Of a stretch of DNA of 38,524 nt, positions 3,433-10,905 are shown piece by piece. A program made the position numbers and the translations under genes. Numbering within the stretch: the first letter of the stretch is position 1; each line of letters opens with the position of its first letter. Origin of the DNA: Candidatus Kapaibacterium sp. (GTDB taxonomy: Bacteria > Bacteroidota > Ignavibacteria > Kapaibacteriales > NICIL-2); contig JANWWF010000015.1 in NCBI GenBank assembly GCA_025055755.1, positions 1 through 38,524 on the forward strand. The letters are read 5' to 3'. Under the pieces are notes generated by a model. It made no database searches. It was not told where the DNA came from and worked only from the letters and a program-made list of their open reading frames with translations.

Positions 3433-3485
3433 CGCCCCGCACCTGAAGCAGTGTGCACCGGGATACTAACGACGCTCCAGATGGC

Positions 3486-4517
3486 ATGCAACCGAAGCTT
3501 ATCACCATTGAGCGGCACATCGCCGAGCAACAGCGACAATTTCCCCAGGCAACGGGCGAGTTCTCCCGTATCCTCCGTGATCTGACGCTTGCGCTGCGCA
3601 TCATTGCTCGCGACGTGCGGCGTGCGGGACTGATGGACCTGCTTGGCTCCACACGAGTGGTGAACATCCACGGCGAGGAAGTCCGCAAGCTCGATGAACT
3701 GGCGCACGATGTCATCTTCCGCGCAATGGACCATGGGGGTCACCTGTGCGTGATGGCATCGGAAGAGGCGGAAGGTCTTATCCACATTCCCTCGAATTAT
3801 CGTCGGGGCAAGTACGTGATGGTGTTCGATCCGCTCGATGGTTCCTCGAACATTGATGCTAACATCACCATCGGAACGATCTTTTCGATCTACCGCCGAC
3901 TCGATGAATCACTCGATACCCCAGGCACCATCGAGGACATCTTGCAACCAGGCTACAAGCAAGTCTGTGCCGGCTACGCAGTCTATGGCAGTAGCACGCA
4001 GCTGGTGTACACAACCGGCATGGGCGTCGATGTGTTCACGTTCGATCCGACGATTGGGGAGTTTTTGCTCTCGCATCCGCAGGTGCGCATTCCACCACGT
4101 GGCTCGATCTACAGCATCAACGAGGGAAGCTACTACCTTTGGGATGAACGTCTGCAGCAGTACATCGAATACCTCAAGACGCCGTCCGCAGATAGGCGGC
4201 GTCCGTACTCGCTCCGCTACGTTGGCACAGCAGTAGCGGATGTGCATCGGACGCTCTTTTATGGAGGCATTTTCATGTATCCGGGCAATAAGAAAGCGCC
4301 CGAAGGCAAACTGCGCCTTATCTACGAGGTCAATCCGCTGGCAAAGATCATCACCGAAGCAGGGGGGCGCGCTTCGACTGGTTGCTGCGACGTTCTTCAC
4401 ATTCAGCCAACAGACATTCATCAGCGCACACCAGTGTTCATGGGAAGTAGCGAGGACGTTACCGAGCTGGAGCAGTTCCTCCGCGGCGAGCATCCGTTTC
4501 AACTAAGCAATGCATAA
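3486..4517 (+). CDS. fbp: Fructose-1,6-bisphosphatase class I
   Basis: Hydrolyses fructose 1,6-bisphosphate to fructose 6-phosphate, a key gluconeogenic step. From ATG 3486 the protein has 343 residues, normal for class I enzymes. Diagnostic motifs are MASEE, the metal-binding FDPLDGSSNID followed by GTIFSIYR, the substrate-binding RYVGTAVADVHRTLFYGGIF, and RLIYEVNPLAKIITEAGG near the C-terminus. An in-frame GTG at 3453 would add eleven residues. I prefer the ATG because homologous sequence begins with its QPKLITIE segment. The stop codon overlaps the start of the next gene by eight bases, so the flippase-like gene is probably translated from the same mRNA although unrelated in function. Confidence 0.96.
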   Translation: MQPKLITIERHIAEQQRQFPQATGEFSRILRDLTLALRIIARDVRRAGLMDLLGSTRVVNIHGEEVRKLDELAHDVIFRAMDHGGHLCVMASEEAEGLIHIPSNYRRGKYVMVFDPLDGSSNIDANITIGTIFSIYRRLDESLDTPGTIEDILQPGYKQVCAGYAVYGSSTQLVYTTGMGVDVFTFDPTIGEFLLSHPQVRIPPRGSIYSINEGSYYLWDERLQQYIEYLKTPSADRRRPYSLRYVGTAVADVHRTLFYGGIFMYPGNKKAPEGKLRLIYEVNPLAKIITEAGGRASTGCCDVLHIQPTDIHQRTPVFMGSSEDVTELEQFLRGEHPFQLSNA

Positions 4518-5928
4518 TCCATTTCGACAGCTTGCCCGAGATTCTGCGATCTACGGGCTGAGCACTGTCATCCAGCGACTGCTGACCTTCCTTCTTACGC
4601 CGCTCTACACTAACATTCTTGCGCCCAGCGAACTGGGGGATGTTGCGCAGCTGTACTCCCTGATGGCACTGGTGACAGTGCTTACAACACTTGGCTTTGA
4701 GCCAGCGTTCATGCGGTATTGGGCAGAGCGGGACGACCGCACGCGCGTTTTTACGCATGCCTTCGCTGCCACAACAGTCGTAGCAGCTGCCATAGTAGTG
4801 CTTGGCGCAGGCGGAGCAGGGATTATCAGCCGTGGAATAGCGCTTTCCTCTCCGCGAGCAGAGCTCCTTGTGTGCATGGCATGTGCTATCGTTGCTTTTG
4901 ATGCCGTTGCAGCAATTCCCTTTGCCCTGCTTCGGATGGAGCGCCGCGCGCTGCTCTTTGCTCTGGTGCGTGTGACTGTTGTTGCCGTCAATGTTGCACT
5001 CAATGTTGTGTTCGTTGCATACTGGCGATGGGGAGTCGAGGGTGTACTGATGGCAGGAGTTGCTGCATCGTTGCTGTCGGTTGTGTTGCTACTGCCGATA
5101 TGCGTGCGCTATTTCGAATGGCGATATGATGGACATCTCCTTGGCGCCCTCCTGCGGTTTGGATTGCCTACTGTTCCTGCGGCTTTTGCTGCGATGGTTG
5201 TGCAGGTTGCCGATCGCCCAATTCTCGGCTGGATCGCTGGTCCCGATGCAGTGGGCATCTACAATGCGAACTATCGTCTGGCAATTCCCATGATGCTAGC
5301 GGTATCGGTGTACGAGACAGCGTGGCGCCCGCTCTACTTGCAGCATGCATCGCAACACCATGGGCATACACTCTTGGCGCGCGCTCTGCGGTACTACTTG
5401 GCGGCAGCAGTCGTGCTTTATGCCGTCGTAGCTGCATTCATTGGGGATGTTGTCGCTATCCCTATCGGGAAAGGACACCTTATCGGTGCACAGTATTGGA
5501 GCGGGCTTGGAATTGTGCCAGTGGTGATGGCAGGATACCTTGTGCTTGGAATTACAACAACAGTTGCAGCTGGCATACACATTACCAAGCGTACAGAGTA
5601 TTTGCCTCTAACGCAGGGGGCTGCTGCAGGAGCAAATGTTGTGCTCAATTTTGTGCTCATCCCATTGCTGGGCTACATGGGTGCTGCATGGGCAACTGTT
5701 GGTGCCTATGTGGTCGGAGCAATGGCAACGGTGGTCATTTGTCAGCGAATCTATCCGGTGCGGTATGGATGGGGAGAGGTATTGGTTGCGCTGGCAACGT
5801 GTGGAGTTGTTGCATGGACGCTCCACCTTCTGCCGCAGCAAGGGGCAATCGGTGTGAAAAGTCTGTGCGTCGGAGGAGCAGGAATCGTCGCAGGGTGGCT
5901 GTACCTGAAGGCTCACCGGTCGGAGTAA
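4510..5928 (+). CDS. Polysaccharide/lipid flippase-like membrane protein (MOP superfamily)
   Basis: A 472-residue polytopic membrane protein with roughly 12-14 hydrophobic segments along its whole length. The N-terminus resembles O-antigen/polysaccharide flippases: a short basic start, SAIYGLSTVIQRLLTFLLTPLYTNIL, then PSELGDVAQLYSLMALV. Later segments such as GLPTVPAAFAAMVVQVADRPILGWIAGPDAVGIYNANYRLA and a helix ending ANVVLNFVLIPLLGYMGAAWATV match the repeat pattern of the family (Wzx/RfbX type, MOP superfamily). Such proteins move lipid-linked glycans across the inner membrane; the substrate cannot be told from sequence. No glycosyltransferases are nearby. It overlaps fbp by eight bases and ends about 250 bases before the envelope operon. 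Confidence 0.85.
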   Translation: MHNPFRQLARDSAIYGLSTVIQRLLTFLLTPLYTNILAPSELGDVAQLYSLMALVTVLTTLGFEPAFMRYWAERDDRTRVFTHAFAATTVVAAAIVVLGAGGAGIISRGIALSSPRAELLVCMACAIVAFDAVAAIPFALLRMERRALLFALVRVTVVAVNVALNVVFVAYWRWGVEGVLMAGVAASLLSVVLLLPICVRYFEWRYDGHLLGALLRFGLPTVPAAFAAMVVQVADRPILGWIAGPDAVGIYNANYRLAIPMMLAVSVYETAWRPLYLQHASQHHGHTLLARALRYYLAAAVVLYAVVAAFIGDVVAIPIGKGHLIGAQYWSGLGIVPVVMAGYLVLGITTTVAAGIHITKRTEYLPLTQGAAAGANVVLNFVLIPLLGYMGAAWATVGAYVVGAMATVVICQRIYPVRYGWGEVLVALATCGVVAWTLHLLPQQGAIGVKSLCVGGAGIVAGWLYLKAHRSE

Positions 5929-6177
5929 ATCCCACCGCATAGTCTATTGCCTTAGCCAGTGCGCGAAGTTCTATGCGTAGAGGGAGCGTTGCTCCCTGCG
6001 CTTTGCTCCTTTGCAAGTAGGTGCTGCCGAAGATTGGAGCACAAGCATTAGCGCTTTCGCAGAAGAAAATCCCTTCCACCGAAGAGAACCTTCTCTTTCA
6101 ATACCAGAGTGCTGCTCTGGAAGTCTTATAGCTCCTGGTATTGCTGCAGCAATTGTTGAACCATTGGAGGTATGCGT
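5929..6177 (+). promoter_or_regulatory. Largest intergenic gap: two hairpins and a 14-base palindrome before the envelope operon
   Basis: No coding frame is convincing here. Three structured elements are visible. AGGGAGC/GCTCCCT (5981-5997, three-base loop) is a stable hairpin without a T-run and may end flippase transcription. CCAGAG/CTCTGG (6104-6120, five-base loop) is a second hairpin. ATTGCTGCAGCAAT (6140-6153) is a perfect palindrome 24 bases before the preferred start of the next gene and could be an operator. A GGAGG Shine-Dalgarno sequence sits at 6166-6170. No TAnnTTTG element was found. Confidence 0.35.
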
Positions 6178-6759
6178 ATGCGATGGTTGATACTGATTGT
6201 CGCGGTCCCGTTGGTTGCTCGAGCGCAATGGTTTGTCGGGGCTGGACCGCTGCACTATCGTCCCGAAAGTGCAGACTACCGCGCTGTGAATCGCCCAGCT
6301 TGGGGCGGGACGGTTCTATTGATGTCGCGTCAGTACTGCCATTGGTGGTACGGTGCGCGGTTGGAGTATTCGCCTCTTTCGCTTTCGCCCTCGCGTCCGA
6401 CCGATCGGCATGGCTATACGGACGCTGCTTTTGTTGCAGGGGAGCTGCGCTGGTTTCCCTGGATGCCGACCAGCGTTCCTCTCTATGGCAGCATAGCACT
6501 TGGGCTTAGCACGATAGCGACCTCACCATCACGCGATCTTCCCAGCCGGCGAGCAGGAGGCAGTATGGGATTCGGCTACAGTGTTGGCATTGGGGGTGTG
6601 CTCTTCTACGATTCTCCCTGCTGCGGATGGTGGCTGGATGTGGCACTCCGCTATCACGCTCCAAATGCTATCGCTCGCAGTAAGTACCGCCCTGTGCTGA
6701 GTTCTGTAGAAGCTCTTGTGACGTTCAACTATGGTTTGGGAGGCAGTAATGAAAAGTAA
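6178..6759 (+). CDS. Small outer-membrane beta-barrel-like protein
   Basis: A 193-residue protein with a clear signal peptide (MRWLILIVAVPLVARAQ, cleavage after ARA) and strand-like segments rich in Gly, Tyr and Trp, ending in ALVTFNYGLGG. This suggests a small eight-stranded-type outer-membrane barrel. The Shine-Dalgarno GGAGG at 6166-6170 is only one base from an upstream ATG (6172) but seven from the ATG at 6178, so 6178 is chosen. A Cys-Cys pair (SPCCGWW) lies in the C-terminal third. It overlaps the next gene by 11 bases and is the first gene of a three-gene envelope operon. No named family was recognised. Confidence 0.65.
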   Translation: MRWLILIVAVPLVARAQWFVGAGPLHYRPESADYRAVNRPAWGGTVLLMSRQYCHWWYGARLEYSPLSLSPSRPTDRHGYTDAAFVAGELRWFPWMPTSVPLYGSIALGLSTIATSPSRDLPSRRAGGSMGFGYSVGIGGVLFYDSPCCGWWLDVALRYHAPNAIARSKYRPVLSSVEALVTFNYGLGGSNEK

Positions 6760-8020
6760 GTGGCATCTTGCAATCATCCTTGCCGTAGTAGGATGGGGCT
6801 GCGGTTCTTCGCAATCTCTTGTCCGATACGACGATGCACTTGATATTCGTCCCGAGCGGCAGTTTTTCTACGAAACAGCACCGTGCGTGTGCGATGAAAC
6901 TGGTTCGACACGGCGTGATGGGCGGACGTTGCGGGGAACTGTCGTGGAAATGGTTATCCGTGCGCGCCGTGATAGCGCAGGGACGGTACGGAATGACACA
7001 CACTTTGTGTTCCTCTCACGCTGTGCCCCTGAGCGGCGAGAGTGTCTGGAACTCATCCCACTGGCGGATGTCGTGCTCCCTGCACAACAGCAAGGCATGG
7101 TACGCAATGAGTATGACAACAAAAACCGCGTCCGTTCATACAACACAGTCACGGGTATTCCCCAGATACGGGATGTGCCTGTGCGCACTGTCGGCTGTGA
7201 TTGTGATCCGCTTGATCTACAGCTTGGGTTACGGCTACCATCGTGGCGATTGCAATGTCCCGAGCGCAACTGCTCGTGGTACTTTGTCGAGCTGCGAGCT
7301 ATTCCGGCTCTATTCTCCTACACTGACTGGGTGGACCGATCCATTTCGGAAGAGCGGCGATCCTTTGCGGCTGAGATTGCGGCAGGGATTCGCATTGGAC
7401 TTACCGCGAATATGCGCCGCCGTGAGGGCGCAAAGCCCTGCGACGAAGAACCTGCCATCGACGAGGACTACCAGCTTGCTCTTCGCACCGATTACTGCTA
7501 TCGGTGGGGAATTGGACTTGCCTTCACCACTGGCACGCGAGCATACAACATGTTCAGCGCTACGCCTCCCGAAGACTTCAATCGCCCGGTTTTAGCACTT
7601 CATGTGCGCTACAACTTCGACCGTACTGTTGCGTGTATGCGCCCGTTTGTCTATGGACAGATCGGAACTGCACTCGATCGGCTAACGATGAACCTTTGGC
7701 GCTTTTCCCTCCGTCTCGACGACGAGCAAGAGCGCCGCATTGCAGAGCTGGACTCGCTCATTGCCGATTGTGGTATTCGCCTGCCAGGCTTGAATCTGGT
7801 AGTGCCCTCCTACTCACTCCGCATGAATGCATCGGCACCTCCACTCACCTTTGGTATCGGGGCGGGAGTGGAGATTCCTCTCAACGCATGGATGGATCTG
7901 GGCATTGACCTTGGCTACCGCTCGCTCGGCATTGGCGATGAACTCCTCTACGACGGGAGAAGCATCCCGCAAGGACGGCGAATAGGTCTATGGCGTTTGC
8001 GTGTTGGTCTCACCTTCTGA
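6749..8020 (+). CDS. Cys-rich putative lipoprotein with C-terminal barrel-like region
   Basis: A 423-residue protein starting at ATG 6749, five bases after a GGGAGG Shine-Dalgarno sequence; a longer start at 6731 lacks one. The N-terminus is a lipoprotein-like signal (WHLAIILAVVGWGC) with a slightly unusual lipobox, so acylation is likely but not certain. Thirteen cysteines are present, many paired: CVC, C-x6-C, CDC and C-x4-C in the first half. That is unusual for an envelope protein of this size. The second half alternates in a barrel-like way (FGIGAGVEIP, MDLGIDLGYRSLGIG) and ends in WRLRVGLTF, a typical terminal strand with final Phe. It is coupled to the upstream small barrel and followed 14 bases later by the PD40 lipoprotein. 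Function unknown. Confidence 0.6.
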   Translation: MKSKWHLAIILAVVGWGCGSSQSLVRYDDALDIRPERQFFYETAPCVCDETGSTRRDGRTLRGTVVEMVIRARRDSAGTVRNDTHFVFLSRCAPERRECLELIPLADVVLPAQQQGMVRNEYDNKNRVRSYNTVTGIPQIRDVPVRTVGCDCDPLDLQLGLRLPSWRLQCPERNCSWYFVELRAIPALFSYTDWVDRSISEERRSFAAEIAAGIRIGLTANMRRREGAKPCDEEPAIDEDYQLALRTDYCYRWGIGLAFTTGTRAYNMFSATPPEDFNRPVLALHVRYNFDRTVACMRPFVYGQIGTALDRLTMNLWRFSLRLDDEQERRIAELDSLIADCGIRLPGLNLVVPSYSLRMNASAPPLTFGIGAGVEIPLNAWMDLGIDLGYRSLGIGDELLYDGRSIPQGRRIGLWRLRVGLTF

Positions 8021-8034
8021 CGGAGGATGCAACG

Positions 8035-10905
8035 ATGAAACAGTGGCATGTTATCTCAGTCCTGTGGCTCCTTGGAATACTCGGAGGCTGTGCGACACCT
8101 CCACCACCGCCCCCGCCAACACAGCTTCCGTCCTACAATCTTGGTGCTGTCAATACTCCGGGGGATGATATTGCGCCATACGTCCATCCCGGCGATGGCT
8201 TGCTCTACTTCACCACCGATGGTATTCGCGATAGTGCCCGACACATCGCTGCTGCAGATGCTCCTGCATGCTTGGTACGGGATCAAGACTTTGCGGTAGC
8301 CCGCTCGTTGGGAGGGCTGCGCTATGATACTGCACGCCTGCGTGGCTCGGCGTTAGCACAGGTGCTCTCGGTGCTTGCCAACAACGAAGGCAACATTGCT
8401 TTTCGCACGATGACCGATGGCTTCTTTGCGTCGGGACATCCCTTCGAGGAAACCTATGCACGTCGTGTCAATGTGCTCGTTGGTGGTCTGGTGGGCGGAA
8501 CTGATTTGTTCCGTTTCTGGATCGAAAAAGATGGAAAGGTGACGGTCCAGAATCTCCAACCACTGAACAGCTTCTATTGGGATGCGCATCCTGCTGTTGC
8601 ACTGCGGAATGATACCACGTTGCTGGTGTTTTCCTCTGACCGTCCTGCAAAAAAGGACCCCACCGATCGAACGCGCGGTCTGAGTGCTCCATTCCGCAAC
8701 CAACGCTCTTTTGATGGGAAGGACACAGTGCTGGGAAATGCAGACCTGTATGCTGCATTCATGATGCCGACCGGGCAGTGGTCACGCGTTGTCAATCTCA
8801 ACGATGTGCTGGGGGTGCCAATTAACTCGCGGGGCAATGAGTATTCGCCATTTCTGTTTTGCCTTGAGCGCGAGCCGGTGCTTCTGTTTGCCAGCGATCG
8901 GCGTGCAGGCGCATCGCCCACCGATACAACACTCGATTCGACGCTCAATCTCTGGATGGCACACCTGTCGGTGGATTACGGGCGGCAACAGATCACGGTG
9001 CGGAGTCTGGAGCAATTGCCCATGGGCACAGATACCATCAACTCTCGAGCATACCACGAGATGTTCCCTTTCATTCCGCATCCGCACCTAACACCGACAG
9101 GGGCAGCAGTTCTTCTTTTTGCCAGCGACCGCGATGACACAGTGCGGCATTGGGCAAATGTGCGGCTGGAGCAACGGAAGGTGGGGAATCTCACCATCCG
9201 CAATCGGGGAGGCTTTGACCTGTACGCCATCCCCATCGAGACAAACTGCCGACCGCCCCGGGTGTTCTACACGGTGAGCATTGTAGATCGCCAGGACCCC
9301 ACTCGGCCTATTCCTCAACCGGTGATAGTGCTGGAAGCTGACGATGGCACTCTCTATGAGCGTCGCGCTTCCACGGCACGCTTCGAGCTTACCTGCGGGA
9401 AACGCTATCGCACCCGCGGCGGAAGCTTGTATGACTCGGTTGTGTGTGATCCCACCGCTGATCGCGTCTTGAGTCACTATGCCCAACGTCGCATCGTGGA
9501 GATGGCACCGCGCAGTATCAAGCGCGTGATTGAACGGCAAGTTGCCGTGGTGCGGACTCATGACACTCTGCGACGAACAATGCTGATTCCTGCCCATCTC
9601 CAGCAGGAAGAGACATTCGATACCAGCGCATTTGAAACATTGGCACGGCTGTCGTTCGCAGTGGCTAAGGATGCACAGTTTGTGGGCATTCGGCGCCGAT
9701 CGCGAGAGCTCATGGATGCACTATTTGCCCGCCCACGTATTGAGCCAGACACGATCATGCGTACAGTCCGGGAGACGATAACCCTGGACATCCCCCAATA
9801 CGACACCCTGCTGATCCCCTTACGCCAGGAACTGGTCCTGTCGGAGCTCAGCAAACGTGGCATGTTCCCCACCTGCGATCCAACCGATCCCAATCAGCAG
9901 GACGTAGAGCTGTACGACACGATCTACATCGAGCCGCAGTACTACGTCTTTCCGCCCTGCGAGCGCGTGTACGTCCGCGACACACAGTTTGTGCGCAATG
10001 TGCCGTACTTCCAGACGACCTTCTGGGAGGTCAATACGAGCCGAGGGCTGGCAGAGCATCTGGTGCGCTTCCGCACCGCCGCTTATCGCGATGCAGGATT
10101 TATCGAGCTGCATCGCTCCAACCAATACTGGGGACCGGAAGCAGTGCTTGATTCCCAGCTTCGAGCACGACGAGAACACCTCCTTGCAGAACGAATCGAA
10201 CAGTATCGGCATTATGCCCGCTATGTGGACCGCAACTATGCTACGATTGTGCGAAGTGTGTGCGACACACTGCTTCCAGGCTTTGCAGATATGCTTGCCC
10301 GTTTGCAGGGAGATACCACCGCCTATGCCAGTGAAAAGCTCATCATTAGCGTCGTTGCATACAGTGATGCCCGCCCAATTCGACGTGGTCTGTACTTAGG
10401 GGCACCAATTGAATACTTCCCCGCGCGATTTGACACAGGAACGTTCCGATTGGAGTTCCCGCAGCAGCAAGCAATCGTGGTGCGCACAGGAGCATCACTG
10501 GTTGGTACCGACAATGATACTCTCTCGAAACTCCGTGCCTACTACGGCTACACTGAATTGCTTGCTCGGCTACGCAATTGTCCTTTGTTTGTAGAGTTCG
10601 AGCGCCGTGGACAAGTGCTTCTTCCGACCGATGTTCGCACACGGGAGGAGTTTGAATCGCGTTTGCAGCGAAGTCGCATTGTGTTCGTCGTCGAGGGACG
10701 CTATGCCGATACGACCGTTTTAGCGCAAACACCGGCATATGCAGCACTACGGCTGTTGCAGATTGCCGATCCAGAAACGATTGCCCAACAACACTCGAAC
10801 GATTACTTCAAGTATGACAATGTGCGCCGGGTTGATGTCACTATCCATCGTGCCAGTTATAGCGGTGGTATGCTCCGGCGTCCGCTCTGCGGCTGTAGTC
10901 GGTAA
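8035..10905 (+). CDS. Lipoprotein with PD40 propeller, CRD-like domain and divergent OmpA-like domain
   Basis: From ATG 8035 (after GGAGG at about 8021) the protein has 956 residues. It begins with a lipoprotein signal whose lipobox LGGC gives Cys19, followed by a Pro-rich linker. Four PD40/WD40-like blades are visible by their YFTTDG, VFSSDR and LLFASDR motifs near residues 57, 197, 282 and 362. Residues about 410-490 (VFYTVSIVDR, IPQPVIVLEADDGTLYE) look like a carboxypeptidase-regulatory-like domain. Residues about 490-760 are unassigned. The C-terminus is a divergent OmpA-like peptidoglycan-binding domain: ISVVAYSD, LSKLRAYYGY and DNVRRVDVTI correspond to the family's GHTD, LSxxRA and NRRVEV motifs. 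The order lipoprotein-PD40-CRD-OmpA resembles PorE of the type IX secretion system, without the TPRs; that link is an inference. Likely location: outer-membrane inner leaflet, contacting peptidoglycan. Confidence 0.75.
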   Translation: MKQWHVISVLWLLGILGGCATPPPPPPPTQLPSYNLGAVNTPGDDIAPYVHPGDGLLYFTTDGIRDSARHIAAADAPACLVRDQDFAVARSLGGLRYDTARLRGSALAQVLSVLANNEGNIAFRTMTDGFFASGHPFEETYARRVNVLVGGLVGGTDLFRFWIEKDGKVTVQNLQPLNSFYWDAHPAVALRNDTTLLVFSSDRPAKKDPTDRTRGLSAPFRNQRSFDGKDTVLGNADLYAAFMMPTGQWSRVVNLNDVLGVPINSRGNEYSPFLFCLEREPVLLFASDRRAGASPTDTTLDSTLNLWMAHLSVDYGRQQITVRSLEQLPMGTDTINSRAYHEMFPFIPHPHLTPTGAAVLLFASDRDDTVRHWANVRLEQRKVGNLTIRNRGGFDLYAIPIETNCRPPRVFYTVSIVDRQDPTRPIPQPVIVLEADDGTLYERRASTARFELTCGKRYRTRGGSLYDSVVCDPTADRVLSHYAQRRIVEMAPRSIKRVIERQVAVVRTHDTLRRTMLIPAHLQQEETFDTSAFETLARLSFAVAKDAQFVGIRRRSRELMDALFARPRIEPDTIMRTVRETITLDIPQYDTLLIPLRQELVLSELSKRGMFPTCDPTDPNQQDVELYDTIYIEPQYYVFPPCERVYVRDTQFVRNVPYFQTTFWEVNTSRGLAEHLVRFRTAAYRDAGFIELHRSNQYWGPEAVLDSQLRARREHLLAERIEQYRHYARYVDRNYATIVRSVCDTLLPGFADMLARLQGDTTAYASEKLIISVVAYSDARPIRRGLYLGAPIEYFPARFDTGTFRLEFPQQQAIVVRTGASLVGTDNDTLSKLRAYYGYTELLARLRNCPLFVEFERRGQVLLPTDVRTREEFESRLQRSRIVFVVEGRYADTTVLAQTPAYAALRLLQIADPETIAQQHSNDYFKYDNVRRVDVTIHRASYSGGMLRRPLCGCSR

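Follow-up and report, generated by a model that had tools for sequence, protein, structure and literature searches.

The window, the whole stretch of 38,524 nucleotides of Candidatus Kapaibacterium sp. that was analysed, carries three genes (P1, P2 and P3) that form a real, conserved and order-specific envelope unit centred on P3, which belongs to the PorE-like superfamily as a derived member. On present evidence this module is not a new secretion system. The three-gene envelope operon proposed in the preliminary description was confirmed as three open reading frames on the same strand, overlapping or nearly touching (Table 1). The ATG of P2 at 6749 lies 11 nt inside P1, and a gap of 14 nt separates the end of P2 at 8020 from the ATG of P3 at 8035, while P1 most plausibly starts at the ATG at 6178. 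The last gene encodes the expected 956-residue lipoprotein (8035–10905, lipobox LGGC at Cys19). The same gene order, complete as P1-P2-(X)-P3 where X is a further gene described below, was found in 34 of 42 independently named loci. Six of the other eight loci were cut by contig ends; the remaining two are L142 of genome G009, which has its P1-P2-X genes on a different contig (L151), and the bridging homologue L145. The assignment of the host to an uncultured FCB lineage was borne out by the record titles of the related loci, which name Candidatus Kapaibacterium, Kapabacteria, Ignavibacteria and Chlorobiota MAGs.

Table 1. Features of the P1-P2-P3 module, in positions of the window.
Feature	Position	Strand	Description and basis
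Shine-Dalgarno-like TGGAGG	6164..6169	+	5' of the P1 ATG; read in the sequence, putative
P1	6178..6759	+	signal peptide and predicted small outer-membrane β-barrel, 193 aa; conserved family A3
P2	6749..8020	+	423-aa lipoprotein: N-terminal β-domain, conserved cysteines, predicted C-terminal barrel; family A2
P2 predicted outer-membrane β-barrel	7274..8017	+	about residues 176–423, eight long strands; strand blocks mostly pLDDT >80
P3	8035..10905	+	956-aa lipoprotein, PorE-like propeller-CRD-hairpin-OmpA-like
P3 lipobox Cys19 (ILGGC)	8089..8091	+	sequence and alignment
P3 five-bladed PD40-type propeller	8116..9258	+	residues 28–408; model, structure and profile matches
P3 CRD-like β-sandwich	9259..9444	+	about residues 409–470; model, profile alignment
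P3 long β-hairpin	9463..9819	+	residues 477–595; strands 477–518 and 558–595 in model
P3 divergent OmpA_C-like domain	9904..10878	+	residues 624–948; topology, homology chain, signature
P3 D778	10366..10368	+	position of PorE Asp576 (peptidoglycan contact); invariant in 32/32 homologues
P3 N827	10513..10515	+	position of PorE Asn584; invariant in 32/32 homologues
P3 R834	10534..10536	+	position of PorE Arg591, N-to-R spacing 7 in both; invariant in 32/32 homologues
Terminator-like hairpin 3' of P3	10964..10986	+	10-pair stem, T-rich tail

No conserved neighbour beyond P1, P2, X and P3 was found among the related loci. A downstream CYTH-CHAD gene was rejected as a member of the unit, as it is not conserved as a neighbour and the terminator-like site lies between, the total of such sites across the region being no higher than in shuffles. 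Upstream of the trio the window contains an FBPase-flippase pair (3453–5928), and the same arrangement is seen in genome G002 (L039, L198). A second copy of this pair occurs in G002 without the trio, and the pair is also present in G004 and G005, where the trio is absent.

The distribution of the module was examined in 61 genomes of the order, including that of the window. A strong match to P3 was obtained in 26 of these, and one further genome (L152) has P1-P2 at a contig end. The trio was missing from the other 34, among them the closed and fully complete G004. Across the phylum, strong matches to P2 were found in 17 of 395 genomes, all within this order, with marginal matches in two more, of which one lies in the order and the other in the class. 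By these sequence searches the module does not extend beyond one order, and its spread there is patchy even within the genus of the window: G002 has the trio, and G004 and G005, both closed, are without it. In a P1+P2+P3 tree the copies of family f9, a group picked after the tree was seen, could not be held together (p-AU 1.7e-64), and f9g22 nests in f2. This suggests that the module has been transferred between families, with hidden paralogy as a possible alternative. A complete and very similar P1-P2-X-P3 set to that of L113 (Ignavibacteriae) was also seen in L112 (JAGXRP010000006.1), from a MAG labelled Desulfobulbaceae, which is probably a misbinned contig.

In most relatives gene X, encoding a lipoprotein of about 280 residues with a conserved VREATIT start, lies between P2 and P3 (for example L045:7974-8930 and L043:8339-9214; motif VREATITxF...GDVYYYRA). 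X was present in 21 of the 61 genomes, every one of them P3-bearing, and its sole location was between P2 and P3. It was not found anywhere in the genome of the window, and it is absent from the genus of the window and from family f4. In the P1+P2+P3 tree this absence amounts to one change, on the fully supported branch joining f1 and f4. No convincing Pfam or PDB relative of X was obtained, and the family profiles of P1, P2, P3 and X, searched by sequence against the PDB, revealed no solved relative.

Both P1 and P2 are predicted to contain small barrels. The prediction of a small barrel for P1 draws on its orthologues, 8 of 20 of which matched OMP_b-brl PF13505 (best 3.6e-6); the P1 of the window gave no match to this family. 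The proposed Cys-rich lipoprotein/barrel corresponds to P2, in which the lipid cysteine (C18) is invariant among the 22 orthologues aligned. The AlphaFold model of P2 has a mean pLDDT of 75 and shows an N-terminal β-domain followed by a confident C-terminal barrel, for which Foldseek gave matches to OmpA (6.7e-6), NspA (1.4e-5) and OmpW (2.1e-4). P2 is thus predicted to be a lipidated, eight-stranded barrel protein. Comparison of the P1 and P2 profiles gave no detectable homology between them. Neither protein of the window matched the PorP/SprF models of NCBIfam or Pfam (PorP_SprF), and their orthologues gave no match to Pfam PorP_SprF.

The model of P3 has a mean pLDDT of 78.5 and a pTM of 0.50; its predicted domain order is well supported and its domain packing is not. 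The preliminary description had read four PD40-like blades in the N-terminal half; the PD40 type was upheld, but the model shows one five-bladed propeller. A single Pfam PD40 match was found in the P3 of the window, at 18.7 bits below the cut-off of 20.9, whereas 14 of 23 orthologues matched (best 7.6e-9). A structure search with the whole model, in which the propeller filled the match list, gave the five-bladed propellers of GH43, GH62 and GH159 with VIA Z values of 17–20. In a profile-profile alignment spanning 338 columns, the propeller and CRD of P3 matched PorE-like proteins of the order with an E value of 7.8e-44, which is decisive sequence evidence for their homology. This alignment, together with a PF13620 match of 6e-4 in the distant homologue L145, also supports the CRD-like domain that had been called from motifs. 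The long hairpin at residues 477–595 had been missed, and is shortened or absent in f5 orthologues (an alignment gap in L047, L048, L050 and L052). The lipobox cysteine is present in most orthologues, with several (L044, L046, L053, L054) lacking it. No Pfam TPR match was found in P3, and the model has no helical repeats between the lipobox and the propeller. The PorE-like domain order without TPRs that had been proposed is therefore retained as propeller-CRD-OmpA-like, with the hairpin as an additional element and an OmpA-like part whose support is indirect. At one locus (L042:4987-7765 of G026), and also at L111, two overlapping frames take the place of a single P3 frame, reflecting an assembly frameshift or a broken gene. 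The P3 of genus g24 (L059, L060, L061) has an extra C-terminal stretch that appears SPOR-like by eye and is possibly a second peptidoglycan-binding unit.

The C-terminal region of P3, residues 624–948, was modelled with a β-α-β-α-β-β topology, which is the OmpA_C-like order with insertions. Direct searches gave no match: Pfam hmmscan found no OmpA domain in any of 23 orthologues, an OmpA profile built from PorE-like proteins did not detect P3 by hmmsearch at maximum sensitivity, hhalign of the whole C-terminus against OmpA was not significant, and a PDB sequence search with this region of the window P3 alone returned no solved relative. With the insertions removed, a profile of the core scored 21.5 against 15.4 or less in ten shuffles, which is suggestive only. 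A search of the phylum with the domain led to paralogues mostly of about 600–680 residues, which aligned to the C-terminal domain of P3 at 2e-35 and in turn to OmpA_C in full register, this weak last link of the chain having a P value of 3.7e-4 and a probability of 36%. One of them is encoded in the genome of the window, outside the trio (L068:5267-7315, contig C125); it is a 683-residue protein that has a PD40 propeller and ends in the same divergent OmpA-like domain (GWTD...GGNYLLSQLRA).

The peptidoglycan contacts of PorE are Asp576, Asn584 and Arg591 (PMC7192894), and P3 has an invariant residue at each of these positions, with an insertion of about 40 residues between D778 and N827. The pair R931-R932, at the position of the OmpA NRRV motif, is likewise invariant. 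The pattern D/N..LS..RA/G/RR, designed with knowledge of OmpA and hence not blind, was found in 98 of 3506 open frames, and as far as these were inspected all were P3-type or PorE-like OmpA proteins. A 24,401-residue open frame holding a P3-type domain in G007 (L200, C58) was rejected as an artefact of N bases. Residues 624–948 are assigned as a putative OmpA-like domain: topology, intermediate paralogues and invariant residues at the PorE contact positions lend indirect support to the divergent OmpA-like domain of the preliminary description, but not one of the 23 orthologues matched an OmpA HMM directly.

The characterised proteins closest to P3 include PorE (PG1058), which belongs to the type IX secretion system (T9SS) of Porphyromonas gingivalis and has an N-terminal TPR domain and a five-bladed PD40 propeller (PMC5053529). 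Both are lipoproteins with a five-bladed PD40 propeller followed by a CRD, and the C-terminal OmpA-like domain of PorE, with its three peptidoglycan-contact positions, has a putative counterpart in P3. P3 differs from PorE in lacking the TPRs, in its extra hairpin, and in an OmpA-like domain that carries a long insertion and lies beyond HMM detection. Its match to the PorE model (NF052230) was 1.5e-4, 20.2 bits against a cut-off of 600. The operon partners of P3 are small barrels, one of them lipidated, instead of PorP, and the trio is optional in T9SS-bearing genomes. The intermediate paralogues (C125/L068 in the genome of the window; L145, L178 and L184) share the C-terminal domain and propeller of P3, but are without the hairpin and, where their context was seen, without P1, P2 or X as neighbours.

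When co-occurrence with type IX genes was checked, SprA was found in all 61 genomes of the order, with and without the trio alike, and PorV was found in the genome of the window (285 bits). The trio appears unneeded for type IX secretion because it is absent from 34 of these SprA-bearing genomes. Closer relatives of PorE were present in all 61 genomes, scoring up to 277 bits compared to 20 bits for the P3 of the window, and no T9SS gene was a conserved neighbour of the trio. Together these results lend no support to the suggestion that the trio is a new type IX secretion module or has a core role in type IX secretion; an accessory link to the T9SS is possible. The refuting pattern named in the preliminary description, a trio widespread in genomes without type IX genes, could not arise, SprA being order-wide and the trio unseen outside the order. 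The GldL model (TIGR03513) gave no match over its cut-off in the 61 genomes and likewise none in the control genomes, and a search for GldM (PF12080) gave nothing usable, the control genomes again being without a match. These searches do not show the type IX motor to be absent, and in this order it may have diverged.

We give about an even chance to the interpretation that the trio is an accessory outer-membrane-to-peptidoglycan complex which tethers small barrels, order-specific and PorE-PorP-like but separate. P3 would be lipid-anchored in the outer membrane and face the periplasm, where its OmpA-like domain would grip the diaminopimelate of peptidoglycan via D778, N827 and R834. The long hairpin would serve as a spacer, and the propeller and CRD would provide a docking platform for P1, P2 and, where present, X. 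The precedent is PorE, which binds PorP, a barrel, and is believed to connect this barrel with peptidoglycan (PMC9143113). The trio shares with the PorE-PorP(-type B CTD) complex the concept that a propeller lipoprotein attached to peptidoglycan holds a barrel in the outer membrane; it differs in that the barrels of P1 and P2 are smaller and outside the PorP/SprF families, and the module has no type B cargo gene. A joint tethering task is suggested because P1, P2 and P3 stay linked without any other conserved neighbour and X occurs only in module-bearing genomes. P3 may be the peptidoglycan tether because the PorE contact residues have invariant counterparts in it, and may hold the barrels because P2 combines an invariant lipid cysteine with a predicted barrel fold and P1 orthologues match OMP_b-brl. 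Against this tether reading stand the weak last link of the OmpA homology chain, the lack of significance in the direct OmpA comparisons, the insertion between D778 and N827, and the orthologues named above that lack the lipobox cysteine.

An accessory T9SS role, in which the barrels are cargo-specific shuttles or surface anchors (like PorP/SprF for type B cargo) and P3 is their dedicated PorE, would draw on the order-wide SprA, the PorV in the genome of the window, the PorE-PorP-cargo precedent and the PorE-like nature of P3. It is judged unlikely, since the 34 SprA-bearing genomes without the trio, the lack of a conserved cargo or T9SS neighbour, the failure of P1 and P2 to match PorP/SprF models and the abundance of other PorE-like proteins in the order all count against it. 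P3 might instead be a general outer-membrane integrity factor without specific barrel partners, P1 and P2 being just co-expressed. The best NCBIfam match, found for 10 of 23 P3 orthologues, is indeed CHU_0125 (NF053607) of Cytophaga hutchinsonii, whose deletion increases vesicle release and leakage (PMC5891637) and which shares the PD40 propeller and OmpA-like end; but the match (4.5e-9) reached 35.4 bits against a cut-off of 620, was local to propeller residues 231–292 and left the C-terminal domain different, and the strict association of P3 with P1, P2 and X across distant families argues for a joint task, so that this strikes us as rather unlikely. A surface glycan or polymer module, with a sugar-binding propeller and with P1 and P2 exporting or displaying the polymer, has a slim chance: the Z values of up to 19.6 to five-bladed glycosidases and the polysaccharide flippase (4510–5928) upstream of the trio in the window and in G002 would fit it, but PorE is also five-bladed (PMC5053529), so the fold says little, and the flippase is no neighbour in other families. 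It is quite improbable that P1, lipidated P2, X and P3 with its hairpin stalk are an undescribed, horizontally mobile Kapabacteria outer-membrane machine for dedicated export, assembly or surface display, unrelated to type IX.

Bacteroidota have numerous copies of PorE-like PD40-CRD-OmpA proteins, with 2–13 per species in some (PMC5053529). The module links one very divergent branch of these proteins to fixed partners, two barrels and a lipoprotein, and its distribution sets it apart from the type IX core. The OmpA-like end of P3 seems to have drifted past current HMMs yet keeps three putative binding positions. The module thus offers a concrete set of proteins for testing how PorE-like lipoproteins pair with barrels.
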